Positions 357-27,716 of a stretch of 33,517 nt of DNA are shown here, piece by piece. Positions within the stretch are counted from its first letter, which is position 1, and every line of letters begins with the position of its first letter. A program made the position numbers and the translations under genes. The DNA comes from a virus. The stretch covers positions 1 to 33,517 of IMG/VR virus record IMGVR_UViG_3300043773_000654; one strand, 5' to 3'. The notes beneath the pieces were generated by a model, which was given only the letters and a program-made list of their open reading frames with translations, did no database searches and was not told the origin of the DNA.

Positions 357-1240
357 TGGCAGCAATATTAAACATACCTAATAGCTTTGTAACCTTTTAC
401 AACCTGGCAAATGACTTAGGCATACCCGAGTATGTAACCGATACCGAGTGCGGAATACAAAAAGACTTTTGCTTACCGATTTATGATGAAAAAGATTTAG
501 CTTTTCAAGTAAACATTGCATCAAGCGAAGTATTGACTTCTGCCAATATAGATGTTCAATTAATACCCGCATCAGGAACGGGAATAACCTTAACTGGGTA
601 TAGCATTTCAGTTGTGGCTAATGGCATTTATGGAGGCTCAATACCGATTTATAATATTTATATTAACTTTTTGGGGAGTGATTTAACTAATGGAATAAGT
701 GAGGGCGATTGTTTTCAAATAGGTATGCTTACGGGTGGCAGTATTGATTTAGCATATTTTGTATCCAACCAATGCTTTAAAAAGGTTAACGATAAATGTT
801 TGACAACTAAACTTCAATACATAAACACATCTAATGCGTTTGGGTTTGTTTACAGAGCGTTTGGCACGTTTCCATTTATATCATTAACTTATAATTTTAT
901 CCGCTTACCATTGTACTTTAAAGAGCCAAACATTAGCAGCGACAAAACTGTTTACGTTAGACCTGATGGAAGCCGCCAACTATTATCGGCACGATTGGCG
1001 AAGCGTTATAAAGGTTATGTCGATGAGGTGCCGGAGGAAGTGCATCAAAATTTAGTAATTGCATTGAATCATGATGGAATTTACTTTACACCCGAAAACT
1101 TTACGACTCAAATACAAGCACGATTTGAGGATGAGTATAACAATAATTATCCCGAAATAATGCAGAACGTAAACATTTGGAGCTCAGATTTTACTATCTT
1201 TGAAACGCCATTTAACAACTTTAACTCTAACTGCGAATGA
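356..1240 (+). CDS. Putative distal tail protein, 294 aa
   Basis: The product is 294 residues, rich in Asn, Ile, Thr and aromatic residues with scattered cysteines, as expected for a beta-rich virion protein. I do not recognise a named domain. It follows the large tail protein through a TAATG stop-start overlap and overlaps the next gene by four bases (ATGA), so it belongs to the same late operon. Its place after the tape measure and the 736-residue tail protein suggests a distal tail or baseplate component. A fragment around residues 200-212 (VRPDGSRQLLSAR) hints at a separate C-terminal region. Role is inferred from position only. Confidence 0.6.
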   Translation: MAAILNIPNSFVTFYNLANDLGIPEYVTDTECGIQKDFCLPIYDEKDLAFQVNIASSEVLTSANIDVQLIPASGTGITLTGYSISVVANGIYGGSIPIYNIYINFLGSDLTNGISEGDCFQIGMLTGGSIDLAYFVSNQCFKKVNDKCLTTKLQYINTSNAFGFVYRAFGTFPFISLTYNFIRLPLYFKEPNISSDKTVYVRPDGSRQLLSARLAKRYKGYVDEVPEEVHQNLVIALNHDGIYFTPENFTTQIQARFEDEYNNNYPEIMQNVNIWSSDFTIFETPFNNFNSNCE

Positions 1241-2106
1241 CAACTGGAATACTTTTAATAGGAATAGGACATAAAAATTATGGGTGCATGGCTGCAAACC
1301 TTGCGATGTCATTACGTGCAAACGGTTGTGACTTACCTATAACATTAATAACGCAAGCCGATACTATCACGCGTTTAGATGAAGACTACAAAGCATTGTT
1401 TACAGAGATAAAAGAAATCCCGCCACATTGCTACACACTTAATGATAACGAAACGTGTTACATCAAAGCAAAGGCGCACATGGATGAGTTAACGCCTTAT
1501 GACTATACGTTGTTTATTGATGCCGATGTGATTATGATTAACAACCACAAAATAAACGAGGTAATCGAATCGCTAAAGGGCATTGATTTTGCGGTAAAAA
1601 ATAGCGGGTTTAAAAACTATGATAGTGATGAGATTACTGCCGATTCAAAGCAATGGGCTAACTTATTAGAAGTAAAAGATGCGTTCGGATTTACAACTGA
1701 AAAGATTTGGAATGTGCATTCCGAGTTTATATGGTGGAAAAAAGGACATCCATTGTTTGCAAAGTGGGTAGAAAACTTTGAAAACATACGTGTAAAAAAC
1801 ATTGAGTTTGCAGGATGCATACCCGATGAGTTACCGTTATGGATTGCAATGTGCCAGTTAGGTGTTGACTGCCATCAAGAAATGTATCACCCTACTTTTT
1901 GGCCAATGGATTCAACTAAAACAATGCGCTTAAAGGATTTAACAGATGACTATTGTGGTGTATCTATTGGAGGTAACAGAATAAGTGAAGTTCAATTAAC
2001 AATCTATAACAACCTTGTGCAAATTCATGCATTAAGAATGAATATGCGATATAAATTTTTACAACAGCCTAAAAGAAGATGGGCTCCAGAACGCCATACT
2101 TATTAA
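1237..2106 (+). CDS. Glycosyltransferase-like protein (GT-A fold candidate)
   Basis: The 289-residue product begins with a Rossmann-like strand (GILLIGIGHKNYGCMAANLA) and carries a DAD motif at residues 95-97 in the context LFIDADVIM, the typical metal and nucleotide-sugar binding DxD of GT-A transferases. A later stretch, HSEFIWWKKGHPLFAKW followed by DELPLWIAM, resembles the acceptor-side region of GT8-like enzymes. It probably transfers a sugar from a nucleotide donor; the acceptor is unknown. It sits between tail genes and the portal gene, overlaps the upstream gene by four bases, and is followed at once by the portal start. Virion glycosylation or surface-glycan modification are both possible. 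Family membership is inferred from motifs. Confidence 0.65.
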   Translation: MTTGILLIGIGHKNYGCMAANLAMSLRANGCDLPITLITQADTITRLDEDYKALFTEIKEIPPHCYTLNDNETCYIKAKAHMDELTPYDYTLFIDADVIMINNHKINEVIESLKGIDFAVKNSGFKNYDSDEITADSKQWANLLEVKDAFGFTTEKIWNVHSEFIWWKKGHPLFAKWVENFENIRVKNIEFAGCIPDELPLWIAMCQLGVDCHQEMYHPTFWPMDSTKTMRLKDLTDDYCGVSIGGNRISEVQLTIYNNLVQIHALRMNMRYKFLQQPKRRWAPERHTY

Positions 2107-16232: not shown

Positions 16233-16418
16233 TTAGTTAATTATTGTCCACTCAAATTTAGCTTTTAAATTCCATTCCAACAAGGGCATAATCAAATCGT
16301 TTTTATCCTTGCGCCTAAAATAAACGTGGTCTATCTTTCGACCTCCGATTACAATGAAATCAATCTTTTTAAAGGTTATGACTTCCTTGCCATTAGTGTA
16401 GCGTGTGTTGCGTGTCAT
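16233..16418 (-). CDS. Small hypothetical protein in the lysis cassette, 61 aa
   Basis: The product is 61 residues, strongly basic, with no membrane segment (IDFIVIGGRKIDHVYFRRKDKND). It overlaps the endolysin stop by four bases (ATGA) and ends one base before the holin candidate's start, so it is embedded in the lysis operon. Function unknown. Confidence 0.6.
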   Translation of the reverse strand: MTRNTRYTNGKEVITFKKIDFIVIGGRKIDHVYFRRKDKNDLIMPLLEWNLKAKFEWTIIN

Positions 16419-16837
16419 ACGATTGTCATTTTCCAGTTAGTTAATTCGTAGTGGGGTTTATCTGAAAAGTTCTTAAAATTACCGCCCCAAGTTAACTTAT
16501 TGCTTACCGATTGCAGTAGTTCCCAAAACTCTTTGAAATGCTTTGCCGAATAGTCTAACTCACGTTTGCCAACCTTTACAAAGGCAATGTCAAAGGCACG
16601 TGATGGGTAATAATTGTGCGGTGATTGCCCAGCACGAGCATTAGTGATTTTTGGTCGTTTATGAAAATACACTTCCTGCATTGCATTATTTCTATAAGTA
16701 CACACAATTATAACGTGAACATCGTTGTGTGTTGCGTTAAATTGCGCTTCGGCTTTCTTGTAGGCATTGGCTAATGTTGGGTGTAAATCCTCAATTAATC
16801 TCGATTCAAAGGGCTTGGTTTCATCTTTTGGTTTCAT
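16415..16837 (-). CDS. Endolysin, M15-type peptidase (L-Ala-D-Glu/D-Ala carboxypeptidase-like)
   Basis: I choose the ATG at 16837 (MKPKDETKPF), giving 140 residues; the frame continues upstream but there it overlaps another gene. The zinc peptidase M15 signature is clear: SPHNYYPSRAFDIAF with His74 and Asp83, and WGGNFKNFSDKPHYEL with Trp117, Asp126 and His129. The conserved ESR near residue 11 is also typical of phage M15 lysins. It should cleave stem peptides of peptidoglycan in the periplasm. No signal peptide or wall-binding domain is seen, so release through a holin is expected, and a holin candidate lies downstream. Confidence 0.88.
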   Translation of the reverse strand: MKPKDETKPFESRLIEDLHPTLANAYKKAEAQFNATHNDVHVIIVCTYRNNAMQEVYFHKRPKITNARAGQSPHNYYPSRAFDIAFVKVGKRELDYSAKHFKEFWELLQSVSNKLTWGGNFKNFSDKPHYELTNWKMTIV

Positions 16838-16841
16838 AATA

Positions 16842-17054
16842 TTATTTTTTTTTAAATTGTTCGTTGTAGTATAGTTCTGCATTTGCTCTTTGGTCTTCAT
16901 CATTCCACCCATTATTAGAATAAGCATCTATTATCTGCTTCTTTTCAATTTCTTTGGCTTGGTTAAATAATAAACTTATCTCTGAAAGTCTACAATCTTT
17001 TTTTATTTCCGTAAGATGTTCCATTAACCACTCAACTGCGGTTTGTTTGCTCAT
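16842..17054 (-). CDS. AVEW-family mini-protein, copy 3 (70 aa)
   Basis: I choose ATG 17054 (MSKQTAVEWLMEHLTEIKKD), because the longer frame overlaps the upstream gene. The 70-residue acidic helical product shares with two neighbours the layout AVEW[LI]..xL, then AK.[IM]EK.QI..[AG]Y, and the ending YYNE.F. It ends in EQFKKK, the same as the neighbouring gene at 17056, and the bases around both 3' ends are nearly identical, which suggests local duplication. It lies five bases before the endolysin start. Function is unknown. Confidence 0.7.
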   Translation of the reverse strand: MSKQTAVEWLMEHLTEIKKDCRLSEISLLFNQAKEIEKKQIIDAYSNNGWNDEDQRANAELYYNEQFKKK

Positions 17055-17055
17055 A

Positions 17056-17283
17056 TTATTTCTTTTTAAATTGTTCAATAAATTTAATTACTTCTTCACA
17101 CATTCTAGATGATGAGTAAGGTCTACGTTCAGTTATTTCTGAATAAAGAAATTGTAGTATTTGTTCTTGTTGCCACTCAGCACCATTAATAAAATCATTT
17201 GCTGCACCAACATAACCATAAGGTATTGGCAATTTTATATTATCATATCTAGCTGCTCTTTCTTCAAGTGTTTCTTTTTCCAT
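17056..17283 (-). CDS. GAEWQ-type mini-protein, 75 aa
   Basis: The 75-residue product starts MEKETLEERAARYDN and contains FINGAEWQQEQIL near residue 31, a motif of small proteins frequent in Bacteroidota phages in my memory. It ends in EQFKKK like the next gene. Predicted mainly helical and soluble. It is one of five tandem small genes between the 138-residue protein and the endolysin; spacing is one or two bases. No known function. Confidence 0.65.
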   Translation of the reverse strand: MEKETLEERAARYDNIKLPIPYGYVGAANDFINGAEWQQEQILQFLYSEITERRPYSSSRMCEEVIKFIEQFKKK

Positions 17284-17284
17284 A

Positions 17285-17473
17285 TTAATCCTGTTTAAAA
17301 GTTTCTAATGGTGGCATTCCATAATTAATTATTGCTCTTTCATATGCTGATTTTATCTGCTCCTTTTCCATTGCTTTGGCTTGTTCAAGTAATTCATCAA
17401 TGTACTTTTGTTGTAAAGATACAGATGGAGCAAGTTGTTCAACTATCCATTCTACTGCTGTGACTTGTTTCAT
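17285..17473 (-). CDS. AVEW-family mini-protein, copy 2 (62 aa)
   Basis: The 62-residue product, MKQVTAVEWIVEQL..., carries the family blocks TAVEWI near residue 5, then LLEQAKAMEKEQIKSAY near residues 29-45. It lacks the YYNE.F ending of the two sister copies and ends in FKQD. The start overlaps the upstream stop by four bases (ATGA). Soluble and helical; function unknown. Confidence 0.7.
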   Translation of the reverse strand: MKQVTAVEWIVEQLAPSVSLQQKYIDELLEQAKAMEKEQIKSAYERAIINYGMPPLETFKQD

Positions 17474-17691
17474 AGGTTGTTTATTTCGGTTTTAACTTGT
17501 TGCCAGTAAATGTGTTGTTCCATTTCATAGCTTTCTTTAGGACATTGAGCGGGATAGCATTCTAATACCTCATCAACTACTATCAATGCTGCTTGTTTTG
17601 AAAAGTATTTATTTGATTGACCACCATTGTAACCAGCGCAAATTGGCTTGTATTTGTTAAATAATTCTTCTGCTTTTTCTTTTGCTTCCAT
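17470..17691 (-). CDS. Small helical protein, 73 aa
   Basis: The 73-residue product begins MEAKEKAEELFNKYKPI and has a central AALIVVDEVLECYP helix. This resembles a second widespread family of tiny Bacteroidota-phage proteins that occurs next to AVEW proteins. Its start shares one base with the upstream stop and its end overlaps the next gene by four bases, so translation is coupled throughout the cluster. Function unknown. Confidence 0.65.
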   Translation of the reverse strand: MEAKEKAEELFNKYKPICAGYNGGQSNKYFSKQAALIVVDEVLECYPAQCPKESYEMEQHIYWQQVKTEINNL

Positions 17692-17888
17692 TAGTCTTGT
17701 TTATTAAAGTTTTCGTTATAATACTCCTGCGCATTGTAATCCTTGGGCATTATAGCCCTTGAATAGCCAACGTGGTAGCCATTGATTATGTTTTGCTTTT
17801 CGATTTCTTTCGCTAATTTTAGCAACTCTTTTGGAATGGCTAACTCATTCGCTAACCATTCAACTGCGCTTATTTGTTTTGTGGGCAT
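17691..17888 (-). CDS. AVEW-family mini-protein, copy 1 (65 aa)
   Basis: The 65-residue product reads MPTKQISAVEWLANELAIPK, then LLKLAKEIEKQNIINGY, and ends with EYYNENFNKQD. These three blocks match copy 3 (17054) and partly copy 2 (17473). The gene starts one base after the 138-residue gene ends and is the first member of the cluster in the direction of transcription. Function unknown; a helical, acidic, soluble protein is expected. Confidence 0.7.
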   Translation of the reverse strand: MPTKQISAVEWLANELAIPKELLKLAKEIEKQNIINGYHVGYSRAIMPKDYNAQEYYNENFNKQD

Positions 17889-20198: not shown

Positions 20199-20555
20199 AT
20201 GACAATTAAAGGCACAATTAAGCGCATAGGCGCAACAGTATCAGTTAGTGATGGTAAATTCTCCAAGAGAGAATTAATCCTAACAACAAATGACCAGTAT
20301 CCGCAAATAGTATCAATCGAATTGCAGCAGAAATCCTGCTCATTAGCAGATGACTTAAAAGTAGGTCAGGACATTGAAGCTCACATCAATATTCGTGGGC
20401 GCGAGTGGACATCACCACAAGGTGAAGTTAAGGTGTTTAACACTATTGCGTGTTGGAAAGTGGATGCGAATCCGTTTACACAAACAGAAGACCCACAAGC
20501 AAGCTATTCAAAGCCAGTGCAAAAGAATGATGTTGAAAGCGATCTTCCATTTTAG
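20199..20555 (+). CDS. SSB-like OB-fold protein (DUF3127-like)
   Basis: The 118-residue product has an OB-fold-like series of strands (IKGTIKRIGATVSV, KRELILTT, IVSIELQQ, IEAHINIRGRE, FNTIACWKVDA) followed by a disordered linker and the end ESDLPF. The last residues mimic the acidic DDIPF tip of bacterial SSB, which recruits replication and repair proteins. Length and pattern match the DUF3127 group found in Bacteroidota. It probably coats single-stranded DNA for the annealing protein encoded next. The OB fold is inferred by eye. Confidence 0.75.
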   Translation: MTIKGTIKRIGATVSVSDGKFSKRELILTTNDQYPQIVSIELQQKSCSLADDLKVGQDIEAHINIRGREWTSPQGEVKVFNTIACWKVDANPFTQTEDPQASYSKPVQKNDVESDLPF

Positions 20556-20580
20556 TTTTAACCCTTAATACATAATAACA

Positions 20581-21276
20581 ATGAACACACAAGTAACAAC
20601 AGTAACAACAATTAACACTACTGATATAATGAATATCAGTAAAGCATTTTACGAATCGGGAATGTTTACCGACATTAAAAGTGTTGCGCAGGCTATGGTC
20701 AAAATATCCGCAGGGCAAGAAATCGGAATACCTCCATTTGCTGCAATGACTGGCATTCACATCATTCAAGGAAAGCCAACAATTGGCGCAGGTTTAATTG
20801 CATCAAGGTTAAAAGGTAGCGGTAAGTATGATTACAGAGTAGTTGAGGCCTCTGAAAAGGTTTGCAGTATAGATTTCTATCAAGGTAACACAAAGATAGG
20901 TAATAGCACATTCACTATTGAGGATGCAAGAAAAGCACTTACCAAGAACATCGACAAATTTCCTAAAAATATGCTATTTGCAAGGGCAATTAGTAATGGT
21001 GTTAAATGGTATTGCCCAGATATATTTAGCGGTCCAGTGTATGTGCCAGAGGAAATGCAAGTAGTGACAACTGAAGAAGCTACACACATTGAGGTTGACA
21101 CAACTATTGATGAAATTATTAATGACATTCAAGTGTGCGTTAGTTTAAATGAATTACAAGCTATTTGGAAAGCAGTTCCTAAAGACATTAAACTTGACTT
21201 AAGAGTGTTGGCTGCAAAAGATGATATGAAAGCTAAATTAACAACTATCTCATTAACACCTAAAATCGAAGCATAA
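20581..21276 (+). CDS. RecT-like single-strand annealing protein candidate
   Basis: The 231-residue product has conserved-looking blocks: IPPFAAMTGIHIIQGKPTIG near residues 57-76 and MLFARAISNGVKWYCPDIFS near 137-156, followed by GPVYVPEE. I remember this pattern from proteins annotated as RecT-family recombinases, which form rings or filaments on single-stranded DNA and anneal complementary strands. The context agrees: an SSB-like gene before and a Gp157-family gene after. The start ATG has a TAATAACA leader and the stop overlaps the next ATG (TAATG). Assignment rests on memory of motifs and on context. Confidence 0.6.
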   Translation: MNTQVTTVTTINTTDIMNISKAFYESGMFTDIKSVAQAMVKISAGQEIGIPPFAAMTGIHIIQGKPTIGAGLIASRLKGSGKYDYRVVEASEKVCSIDFYQGNTKIGNSTFTIEDARKALTKNIDKFPKNMLFARAISNGVKWYCPDIFSGPVYVPEEMQVVTTEEATHIEVDTTIDEIINDIQVCVSLNELQAIWKAVPKDIKLDLRVLAAKDDMKAKLTTISLTPKIEA

Positions 21277-21770
21277 TGAAACTAACAATCTATCAAATTG
21301 AACAAAGCTATAACCAATTAGCTGAAGAATTAATCGAAAATGGTGGGGAACTTACCCCATCATTAGAAGAAGCACTTGCCATTACTGAAGAACAGTTGCA
21401 AAACAAATCAGTAGCCTATTCATTTGTTATAAAGCAAATGGATGCAGATGTTGACATTATTGATGCTGAAATAAAGAGGTTGCAGGCAGCGAAAAAGCAA
21501 CGTGAGAAAGCATCGGATTATTTAAAGGATCGCATTAAACACGCAATGGATTTATTTAGCATTGATGAAATTAAGACACCTTTGGTCAAGATTAACTTTC
21601 GCAAATCGGAAACAGTTGAGGTGGATGATGTCAACCAACTGCCTGCTGCATACAAGGTAGTAAAGGTAACCGAACAAGCAGATAAGGCAGCTATTAAGGC
21701 AGCATTAAAGGATGGTGTTGAAGTTGCTGGATGCAGTATAGCAACACATCGTAATTTGCAGATTAAGTAA
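21276..21770 (+). CDS. Siphovirus Gp157-family protein
   Basis: The 164-residue product has the hallmarks of the Gp157 family: an N-terminal EQSYNQLAEELIENGGELTP, a long coiled coil (DVDIIDAEIKRLQAAKKQRE) and a C-terminal part with IKTPLVKINFRKSETVEVDD and LPAAYKV. Gp157 proteins are common in siphophage recombination modules next to SSB and annealing genes; the Streptococcus phage member was linked to phage resistance. The molecular role is unknown. The 3' end holds the -33 box of the next promoter. Confidence 0.8.
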   Translation: MKLTIYQIEQSYNQLAEELIENGGELTPSLEEALAITEEQLQNKSVAYSFVIKQMDADVDIIDAEIKRLQAAKKQREKASDYLKDRIKHAMDLFSIDEIKTPLVKINFRKSETVEVDDVNQLPAAYKVVKVTEQADKAAIKAALKDGVEVAGCSIATHRNLQIK

Positions 21771-25278: not shown

Positions 25279-26588
25279 TGAATGTCGACTTACAAGCCAA
25301 CCCAAAGCAATACGATTTCTATATTCAAGCAATGGCGGCGGCACAAGGCGCGACAGAGAAGCGCAATCTACTTTATGGCGGCGCAATTCGTGGTGGCAAG
25401 TCTTTTATTTGCGCCACGATCTGTTTGCGGTTGGCCTCAATGTATCCAAATAGCAAGTGGCATGTAATAAGGTCAGACTTCCCTAAGTTAGTTAAGACAA
25501 TTATACCGACCTTTGAAAAGATTATCGATGGCTCCCCACACTTTAGGTGGTCACGCGATAAGTCAAACTACTTCTTAGAAAACACTAAGACCAAATCAAA
25601 GATATTCTTTATGGCTGAGAACATAAGCCATGACCCCGAACTTAACGCGTTTCTTGGACTCGAAACAAACGGTATATACTTTGAGCAAATCGAGGAACTG
25701 AGCAAGAAACTTTGGAATATCGGCAGCTCACGCGTTGGCTCGTGGTATATTGATAAAATGCCAACCCCATTGATATTAGCAACATTTAACCCGACTCAAA
25801 CGTGGATTAAGGATGAGATTCATATTCCGTATTTAAAAGGCGAATTAGGGCCAGAGTTTTACTATCAGTTAGCCTTACCCGATGACAATGCATTCGTAAC
25901 TGAGGAGCAACGTAAAGTATGGTCACGTATGGATGAGCGTTATAAGCGGCAGTTTATCGGTGGCGATTGGACCAACTTCGATATGGATGGCAACAGATGG
26001 GCCTATGCTTACGATTCGACTAAGCACTTAAAGCCCGTTGAACTTAACAAACAACTGCCGATTATACTTAGCTTCGATTTTAACCGTAATCCAATATGTT
26101 GCTCGGTGCTTCAAGTTATGCCGCCATCAACGATAAGAGTTAAGGAGACGATTAAGTTAGCCAATAGCGACATCTATCAACTATGCGATGTGATTAAAAG
26201 CAAGTATGGCAATGCACTATACCAAGTAACTGGCGATGCAAGTGGCAAGTCATCGAGTGCATTGGTGCAGGATAACCTCAACTATTATGTTGTTATTCGG
26301 CAGAAGTTTAACCTATCTAACAATCAAATGTTAGTGCCGAGCGTTAACCCATCGTTAGAAGACAACCGAATGTTAGTCAACTCACTTCTTGCGCGTGGCA
26401 ATGTCGAACTTGACCCGCAGTTTACTAAGGGCTTGCAATTCGATTTGGAAAATGTGGCGGTGTTGCCAGATGGGACAATAAAGAAAACAGACCGTAACGA
26501 TCCAACTCAACAAGCGGATGCATTAGACACATTTCGATATGCATGTAACACTTATTTAAAAAATTTCATATATTTGTCAAATGTTTAG
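25278..26588 (+). CDS. terL: Large terminase subunit (TerL)
   Basis: The 436-residue product has an ATPase domain with Walker A GGAIRGGKS at residues 34-42, Walker B NGIYFEQIEEL at 131-141 (catalytic Glu) and an LATFNPT coupling motif at 167-173. The nuclease domain has LSFDFNRNP (Asp267), VTGDASG (Asp320) and QADALDTFRYAC near 412-423, matching the three-acid RNase H-like terminase nuclease. It pumps DNA into the procapsid through the portal and cuts it. Length is normal for the family. It overlaps the next gene by eight bases. Confidence 0.93.
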   Translation: MNVDLQANPKQYDFYIQAMAAAQGATEKRNLLYGGAIRGGKSFICATICLRLASMYPNSKWHVIRSDFPKLVKTIIPTFEKIIDGSPHFRWSRDKSNYFLENTKTKSKIFFMAENISHDPELNAFLGLETNGIYFEQIEELSKKLWNIGSSRVGSWYIDKMPTPLILATFNPTQTWIKDEIHIPYLKGELGPEFYYQLALPDDNAFVTEEQRKVWSRMDERYKRQFIGGDWTNFDMDGNRWAYAYDSTKHLKPVELNKQLPIILSFDFNRNPICCSVLQVMPPSTIRVKETIKLANSDIYQLCDVIKSKYGNALYQVTGDASGKSSSALVQDNLNYYVVIRQKFNLSNNQMLVPSVNPSLEDNRMLVNSLLARGNVELDPQFTKGLQFDLENVAVLPDGTIKKTDRNDPTQQADALDTFRYACNTYLKNFIYLSNV

Positions 26589-27189
26589 CGTAATTATACC
26601 TACGATGTGGCGAAGTCCACGCATCATAAAGCTTGTTGAAGACCTATGTGCATGCGAATTTGTCGGTGAGATTATCATTATTGACAACGACACAACTGAA
26701 TACAGACCGTTGCCGCTTAACGCTAAGTATGACATACACTTAATGGCTGAAAACATTTACGTAAACCCCGCGTGGAATTACGGAGTTGAGCGCGCTAAGT
26801 ATGATAACATCTTAATTTGCAACGATGACATTAACTTCAATCCTGCATTCTTATCGATATTTGATGACAGTTTGCAGCACGTTGGCGTTATCGGTATGGC
26901 ATTTGAAAACTATCAATTAAAAAAGGATGCTAACATACATTTGAAATCAATGAAGCAACGGCCATACGGATGGGGATGTATGATGTTGATGCATAAATCT
27001 AAGTATGTTGCTATACCCGAAGACTTACTGATTGCAAATGGCGATGACTGGTTAGCGCAAAATTCAACGCCTTACGAGTTGCATGGCTTAAGTATTCAAT
27101 CCGAGATTAGCACAACTACACAACTGCCTGAATTTGGAATGATTCAGTTGAATGACAATCAAACTTTCTTAACTAAATATAAAAAGTAA
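26581..27189 (+). CDS. GT2-like glycosyltransferase, 202 aa
   Basis: The product starts MFSVIIPTMWRSPRI, a GT2-type first strand, followed by EIIIIDNDT (residues 30-38), NPAWNYGVERAKYDNILICN (62-81) and NDDINFNP (81-88) as the DxD-like metal site. The end differs from full-length GT2 enzymes, so it is a short version. It should transfer a sugar from a nucleotide donor. Placement between terminase and a methyltransferase, with an eight-base overlap with the former and a one-base TAATG overlap with the latter, suggests a joint modification of glycan or virion. Confidence 0.75.
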   Translation: MFSVIIPTMWRSPRIIKLVEDLCACEFVGEIIIIDNDTTEYRPLPLNAKYDIHLMAENIYVNPAWNYGVERAKYDNILICNDDINFNPAFLSIFDDSLQHVGVIGMAFENYQLKKDANIHLKSMKQRPYGWGCMMLMHKSKYVAIPEDLLIANGDDWLAQNSTPYELHGLSIQSEISTTTQLPEFGMIQLNDNQTFLTKYKK

Positions 27190-27716
27190 TGGCACACAGA
27201 GAACAAAGAGAATGGTGTGAGCTTGTCAAATACGCGCACGATGAATTTTTTGTCGGCACAAGCGTGTTAGACATCGGCTCACTTGATATTAATGGCAACA
27301 ACCGTTACTTGTTTGAGCAATGCAACTACACTGGCATCGATATCGGCGAGGGCAACAATGTTGATGTAGTGTGTAGCGGTCACTTGTTTAAGTCTGATGA
27401 TTTATTCGATGTGGTTATTTCAACTGAGTGCTTTGAGCATGATGAGTATTGGCAACAAACGTTAAAGAATGTGATTAACAACTTGCTAAAGGATGGCGGT
27501 TTGTTTTTATTTAGTTGTGCCGCACCAGGTAGACCAGAGCATGGCACAAAGCGCACATCGCCAAAGGATAGCCCGTTTACTAACGACTACTATCGCAACT
27601 TAAGTGAGGCAGATATTAGAAGTGTGTTAAATTGCAATGAGATATTTTCAAATTATAAATTTAAAACACGTATAGACTTCCCACAAGATTTGTATTTTTA
27701 CGGAATAAAAAAATAA
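27189..27716 (+). CDS. Class I SAM-dependent methyltransferase
   Basis: The 175-residue product has motif I VLDIGSLDINGNN at residues 26-38, the acidic GIDI at 49-52 for the ribose hydroxyls, and FDVVISTECFEHD at 73-85 as the post-III region of Methyltransf_11/23-type enzymes. The fold is complete but lacks DNA-methylase motifs such as DPPY or PCQ, so small-molecule, glycan or protein methylation is more likely than DNA methylation. It is coupled to the GT2-like gene by TAATG, which suggests O-methylation of a sugar added by the transferase. That link is inference. Confidence 0.82.
   Translation: MAHREQREWCELVKYAHDEFFVGTSVLDIGSLDINGNNRYLFEQCNYTGIDIGEGNNVDVVCSGHLFKSDDLFDVVISTECFEHDEYWQQTLKNVINNLLKDGGLFLFSCAAPGRPEHGTKRTSPKDSPFTNDYYRNLSEADIRSVLNCNEIFSNYKFKTRIDFPQDLYFYGIKK

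Follow-up and report, generated by a model that had tools for sequence, protein, structure and literature searches.

Fixed boxes and exchanged spacers in families of coupled mini-genes from Bacteroidota phages

The DNA analysed here (the window: all 33,517 nucleotides of IMG/VR virus record IMGVR_UViG_3300043773_000654) is the 33.5 kb record of a tailed phage, the minus strand of which carries five contiguous and coupled mini-genes, A-B-C-D-E, between positions 17888 and 16842 (Table 1). All five have ATG starts and encode 62-75 aa, with overlaps of 1 and 4 nt or gaps of 1 nt between the open reading frames, which bears out the dense packing described in a first-pass annotation of this DNA. 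Its DNA repair exonuclease gene has 75-77% identity to Flavobacterium phages, and this gene was the sole match in a search of GenBank phage DNA for near relatives. By eye, two glycosyltransferase-like proteins and one methyltransferase-like protein are encoded among the structural genes on the plus strand (window 1237-2106, 26581-27189 and 27189-27716).

Table 1. Mini-genes of the cluster, their boxes and spacers, and selected genes in their surroundings (window coordinates).
Feature	Position	Strand	Sequence or description
Gene A	17691..17888	-	65 aa, AVEW family; ORF, homologous to C and E
Gene A box 1			SAVEWL
Gene A spacer 1	17852-17814		ANELAIPKELLKL
Gene A box 2	17813-17787		AKEIEKQNI
Gene A spacer 2	17786-17724		
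Gene A box 3	17723-17709		YYNEN
Gene B	17470..17691	-	73 aa, phrog_21441 family
Gene B box 1			EKAEEL
Gene B spacer 1	17661-17593		FNKYKPICAGYNGGQSNKYFSKQ
Gene B box 2	17592-17566		
Gene B spacer 2	17565-17509		LECYPAQCPKESYEMEQHI
Gene B box 3	17508-17473		YWQQVKTEINNL
Gene C	17285..17473	-	62 aa, AVEW family; box 3 degenerate (ETFKQD)
Gene D	17056..17283	-	75 aa, GA(K/E)WQ family
Gene E	16842..17054	-	70 aa, AVEW family
Gene E box 1	17042-17025		TAVEWL
Gene E spacer 1	17024-16959		
Gene E box 2	16958-16932		AKEIEKKQI
Gene E spacer 2	16931-16872		IDAYSNNGWNDEDQRANAEL
Gene E box 3	16871-16857		YYNEQ
M15-type endolysin	16415..16840	-	1 nt downstream of gene E; context, outside the mini-gene families
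DUF3127 SSB, RecT-like annealing protein and Gp157/Gam-like protein	20199..21770	+	candidate recombination machinery

Three of the genes had been noted to share an AVEW motif, and this relationship holds: A, C and E share homology (Z 9.3-11.7 over shuffled sequences, matched by 0/1000 shuffles) and retrieve one another in a search of this record (E-values 2e-4 to 3e-4). We define the AVEW family, here also called the A family, by a TAVEWL box, an AK.MEK.QI box and a YYNE box; all three are present in A and E, and C carries boxes 1 and 2 together with a degenerate box 3. Shuffles and profile comparison led us to reject B and D as further members, and a mutual relationship of A, B and D was rejected as well (hhalign probability 1-2% each). 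The EQFKKK ends of D and E had been taken as a sign of recent duplication, which is not the case: the two genes are otherwise unrelated (Z 1.4, 94/1000 shuffles) and their family profiles align with an hhalign probability of about 2%. An ending of the EQFKKK type is the regular third box, which reads WFEQFKKK in relatives of D and YYNETFK in relatives of A, and the common ending is thus what two different families each have as their ordinary last box, not a duplication. The further statement that these divergent paralogues have no known function stands, with no Pfam or NCBIfam family assigned to any of the five genes and only the unnamed phrog_21441 assigned to B (E-value 8e-13, residues 1-73 of 73); this profile is matched by all 32 of the 32 B relatives tested. 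Gene D corresponds to the C-terminal portion of larger 'IHVLPTDKPSR' (F5) proteins. Searches with PADLOC defence profiles gave no match common to family members, only isolated single-member matches (best E-value 0.0014). While the cluster and the AVEW relationship were recognised in the first-pass annotation and the recent duplication it proposed has to be dropped, what it missed is a design of three boxes and two spacers and the shuffling that acts upon it.

In each family, three conserved boxes are separated by two hypervariable spacers: (K)QTAVEWL - spacer 1 - QAKEMEKEQI - spacer 2 - EQYYNETF(K) in A; EKAKEL - spacer 1 - CALIAVDEI - spacer 2 - YWQEVKQEIEKL in B; and ETLEEAA - spacer 1 - GAKWQ.ERSYSEE - spacer 2 - WFEQFKKK in D. 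Spacers of the A and B families are 8-46 aa in length; spacer 1 of gene C (VEQLAPSVSLQQKYIDELLEQ) resembles that of L127, one of the related loci (L followed by a number). Structure prediction of the monomers, which had been proposed as a check, afforded three-helix AlphaFold2 models for gene E (pLDDT 83; helices 6-14, 23-46 and 53-67) and gene B (pLDDT 91; helices 3-18, 27-45 and 55-72). Both models place one box on each helix, with a spacer comprising the end of one helix, the turn and the start of the next. A Foldseek search against the PDB returned nothing significant; with VIA-align, B reached a best Z of 7.4 (against photosystem I PsaL, with 73 positions aligned and an rmsd of 3.5) and A one of 4.7. 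Since generic helical arrangements score in this range, fold identity was rejected, and the predicted A and B folds appear to match only such arrangements. The search of BFVD placed uncharacterised phage proteins at the top for B.

Several variations on this architecture were observed. In L126 (5427-6383, plus strand), A-family boxes 1 and 2 are followed by a NUMOD1 / I-HmuI-like homing endonuclease part that replaces box 3, and in L041 (776-1453, plus strand) A-family boxes 1-2 are joined to the tail of a DEFAI.FAEW...KELLEIYKKEKGL family, forming an inter-family hybrid. This further family, ADEFAI.FAEW ... KELLEIYKKEKGL (L045, L238, L280, L284, L352 and others; 20 distinct sequences), apparently shares the box-and-spacer design. 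F5-type modular proteins are encoded on contigs of 160-308 kb (L390, L399, L416 and L467), so that the design extends beyond small phages; L467 contains the conserved motif in four copies, of which three are clustered in about 1.1 kb.

Relatives stem mostly from metagenomic contigs. The first profile/pattern scan of viral contigs alone found at least 350 relatives of A, with B at 38 loci and D at 19 loci in the viral contig scans, and further loci were added through degenerate DNA patterns. The co-occurrence and copy-number check that had been asked for, run on the viral-contig loci, gave 1 to 4 A genes per locus. Members were all on one strand in 204/208 multi-member loci and 202/351 neighbouring same-strand member pairs lay within 60 nt, both counts being approximate as a few loci overlap; no B was detected in 61/97 A-fetched loci of at least 8 kb. 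Among cultured phages, A and a D-like gene are found in the Flavobacterium elemo phages, and B is found in Nonlabens P12024L/P12024S and Cellulophaga phi13:2/phi19:3. Bacterial genomes almost never carry the mini-protein families: a scan of 84,980 species yielded the A family at 5 loci only, each on a MAG contig, and among 395 genomes of the same phylum A was found in 3 (two weak) and B in 2.

REPLACEMENTS between close relatives, with one spacer replaced and matching flanks on either side, were detected both in this cluster and in cultured phages; flanks were compared by per-segment DNA alignment, a test in which unrelated spacers average 42%. Gene E and the sister contigs L084/L086/L087 agree at 150/150 positions of upstream DNA and at 65/66 of spacer 1, then carry unrelated copies of spacer 2 (52%) and are identical again in box 3. 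Between gene A and L088 it is spacer 1 that differs (62%), whereas spacer 2 is retained (90%), with spacer 2 and downstream DNA 90-94% identical. Gene B has spacer 1 in common with L092 (86% DNA) next to an unrelated spacer 2 (36%), and with L091 it has spacer 2 in common next to a different spacer 1. Between L010 and L359, the flanks are 95% identical on both sides and box 2 together with spacer 2 is 98-100% identical, with spacer 1 replaced (44%). The strongest case is provided by the isolates P12024L and P12024S, which infect the same host and are 96% identical over 5 kb: their B genes match at 100% in box 1, box 3 and the two flanks and at 87% in box 2, yet the spacers are unrelated at 36% and 33%. 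In phi13:2 and phi19:3, spacer 1 alone is replaced (46%), with box 2 and spacer 2 at 100%. As most sequences are metagenomic and the boxes constitute short repeats, chimeras joined at the conserved boxes during metagenome assembly could in principle produce such patterns; however, the same replacements in two pairs of cultured, separately sequenced phages exclude assembly error as a general explanation. Together with the recurrence of one combination across several samples (L084, L086 and L087) and many synonymous differences within common spacers, this leaves assembly chimeras with next to no probability. The diversity stems from exchange between phages.

Within one protein, spacer 1 and spacer 2 assort almost freely. 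Comparison of 299 distinct A variants identified 78 pairs with a common spacer 1 and 133 with a common spacer 2, but only 5 with both; the corresponding numbers are 95, 84 and 8 for 222 B variants, and 62, 79 and 6 for 173 D variants. Spearman correlations between spacer 1 and spacer 2 are 0.00 in A, -0.01 in B, 0.02 in D and 0.00 in the 121 variants of the F5 family, compared with 0.41-0.71 in controls (eight neighbouring phage gene families, cut mid-gene); co-inheritance amounts to 6% (A) and 10% (B), against 53-100% in the controls. Linked chimeras, in which spacer 1 is common with one protein and spacer 2 with another, each being unrelated elsewhere, number 16 in A, 29 in B and 19 in D: L310, for example, has the spacer 1 of L193 (32 aa, identical) together with a spacer 2 that matches L075 exactly. 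Hypervariable spacers of changing length could also arise through fast point-mutational divergence of loops or through retroelement mutagenesis, with no exchange of modules at all. This explanation is highly improbable given that spacers of up to 32 aa recur, identically or nearly so, beside unrelated partner spacers (L310/L193/L075) and that the rank correlation is zero where the controls are clearly positive, whilst length-variable, unrelated spacers are an ill fit for the adenine-only substitution of a retroelement. We also considered movement of spacers between positions or between families and rejected it, as no instance was found in any comparison at the 0.5 threshold. Same-genome paralogues are unsupported as spacer donors: only 1/78 same-locus paralogue pairs had a common spacer for either A spacer, and 0/21 for B, which argues equally against recent duplication as the origin of the set. 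Rough Chao1 estimates place the pools at about 790 and 1050 variants for the A spacers and at 390 and 655 for those of B.

Within the boxes themselves there is evidence of where exchange takes place. In case of A pairs with only spacer 1 in common, identity falls across box 2 from 0.95 next to the common spacer to 0.70, the latter being the baseline of unrelated pairs, a decay that crossovers within the box would produce; B has a similar but weaker trend, and A pairs with only spacer 2 in common show raised box 2 identity with a weak gradient. Codon choice in the boxes is constrained as well: alanine in A box 2 is encoded by GCC in 80% of cases, compared with 12% in the long genes found at these loci, and mean codon bias is 0.31-0.53 bits per codon as against 0.07-0.21 at conserved positions of control genes. 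Such constraint fits either homology anchors or a recent spread of the boxes. In raw counts, genes for ERF annealing proteins neighbour the families at 90 loci, along with NinG, VRR-NUC, DUF3127 SSB and DnaA-C-like genes; the window itself encodes an SSB as well as one RecT-like and one Gp157/Gam-like protein. Phage mosaics are known to arise through Rad52-like and Red recombinases, which act on homology that is short or diverged (PMC3945230, PMC2327257). We consider it likely, with good confidence, that the boxes serve as homology anchors for homologous recombination, in which RecT-like or ERF-like annealing proteins probably take part. Not every exchange uses box 2, as both spacers were replaced together in P12024L/S.

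A separate observation concerns box 3 of the A family, which together with its stop and the next start codon apparently recurs as conserved DNA before unrelated genes (out-of-frame reading NNTTTKPLNQNKM; strand-relative frame starts L025:5154, L226:7938, L166:2034, L262:2874 and L079:5119). This recurrence suggests exchange of whole genes at the same box.

Spacers common to different phages are constrained at the protein level, with dN/dS of 0.20 in A and 0.14-0.15 in B, values that are biased low because pairs were picked by amino-acid similarity; numbers for D were too small. Synonymous differences nevertheless reach about 0.5-0.6 per site, and this high divergence indicates real constraint in spite of the bias. 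Spacers common to phages are thus under purifying selection in A and B, and the variants are maintained working modules. These results bear upon the possibility that shuffling is a by-product of recombination, that is, that the genes are dispensable, lie in a hot spot and merely tolerate combinations that carry no specificity. Their location in early replication/recombination neighbourhoods, the conservation of the boxes at the DNA level and the variable copy number of A are all consistent with such a by-product; however, in common spacers the amino acids are preserved although synonymous sites have changed, and adjacent small genes are not shuffled, so that we regard it as unlikely, albeit as the most probable of the alternatives. 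A role in structure or assembly, in which spacers tune A-B-D hetero-oligomers and exchange is limited to compatible sets, would agree with the translational coupling and frequent adjacency of A, B and D. Almost free assortment within a protein, the many loci with one family only and the scarcity of common spacers among paralogues all speak against it, and we judge this role to be less probable still.

That these proteins have a mosaic architecture of fixed boxes and exchanged spacers we hold to be practically certain. The explanation that we favour overall, with somewhat better than even confidence, is that they are combinatorial two-module binders of host targets, diversified by recombination in the boxes. 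Three-helix folds, purifying selection on the spacers and a distribution nearly confined to viruses are in keeping with small proteins that act on targets in the host, and numerous maintained variants, selection within variants, free combination and the same near-confinement form the pattern expected of specificity determinants in conflict. For the spacers as recognition modules in particular we see an even balance, and a role in anti-defence or host takeover is proposed only tentatively. Mechanistically, each mini-protein would be a small helical scaffold with its three boxes in successive helices, as modelled for A and B. Spacers pass between phages as intact, position-specific modules with breakpoints at or in the boxes, which may act as short homology anchors annealed by phage proteins (RecT-like here, ERF-like near many relatives). 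Each spacer would then be a recognition module, and a phage would bear a small set of two-module binders taken from several hundred variants that phages have in common; in the course of infection, these binders may act on host proteins which vary from strain to strain, either defence factors or takeover targets.

Comparison with known systems reveals partial parallels. Domain shuffling of phage proteins has been described as the swapping of fragments between otherwise different proteins, linked to the arms race with the host, mainly in receptor-binding proteins, endolysins and replication proteins and with 50 aa as the minimum length of an aligned fragment (PMC10684548, Smug et al. 2023); the same study considers that proteins of unknown function probably contain more mosaicism. 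Ongoing fragment exchange is common to both cases, whereas here the modules are 8-46 aa in length, lie between fixed boxes and are found in mini-proteins as well as in larger F5 proteins. The A and B spacers are all shorter than the 50-residue minimum of that screen, which could not reveal modules of this size. HsdS specificity subunits of type I restriction systems (PMC3077401, Furuta et al. 2011) are alike in having conserved blocks that alternate with two modules, exchangeable through recombination in the conserved DNA, but their modules are large domains for DNA recognition that can also switch between positions 1 and 2, which the spacers here never do. No Pfam specificity-domain match was obtained with the five genes and 63 A members, and the present proteins would resemble HsdS in logic only, within about 70 residues. 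Ea22 of lambdoid phages (PMC7093339, PMC10834534) is likewise a diverse accessory protein of the early region near exo/recombination genes; it favours lysogeny, however, and has three unlike domains, while bacterial chromosomes hardly ever contain the families described here. The five genes and A members gave no Pfam match and only unnamed PHROGs matches, and Ea22 was compared by description only. As for phrog_21441, it is the same family as B, with an unnamed function in PHROGs and no record of shuffling, and the mosaics formed by Rad52-like and Red recombinases represent a general relaxed-homology mechanism that is untied to any protein design of boxes and spacers. In the literature searched, no account of mini-proteins that shuffle spacers between boxes was found, which is weak evidence given that subscription papers lay outside it.

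Phages bear very many small genes of unknown function, and in four families of these (A, B, D and F5) a single design rule now applies: fixed boxes with freely exchanged spacers. This provides a testable specificity-module hypothesis, natural swap pairs in cultured phages and small helical scaffolds with exchangeable modules. For the biology of Bacteroidota phages it may mean, as a wider picture that we put forward with caution and at less than even confidence, that at least families A, B, D and F5 form a common repertoire of mini-binders, with the boxes as recombination joints and helical scaffold and several hundred variants of each spacer as interchangeable recognition halves, which would be reassorted on co-infection against variation in host defences or host factors.
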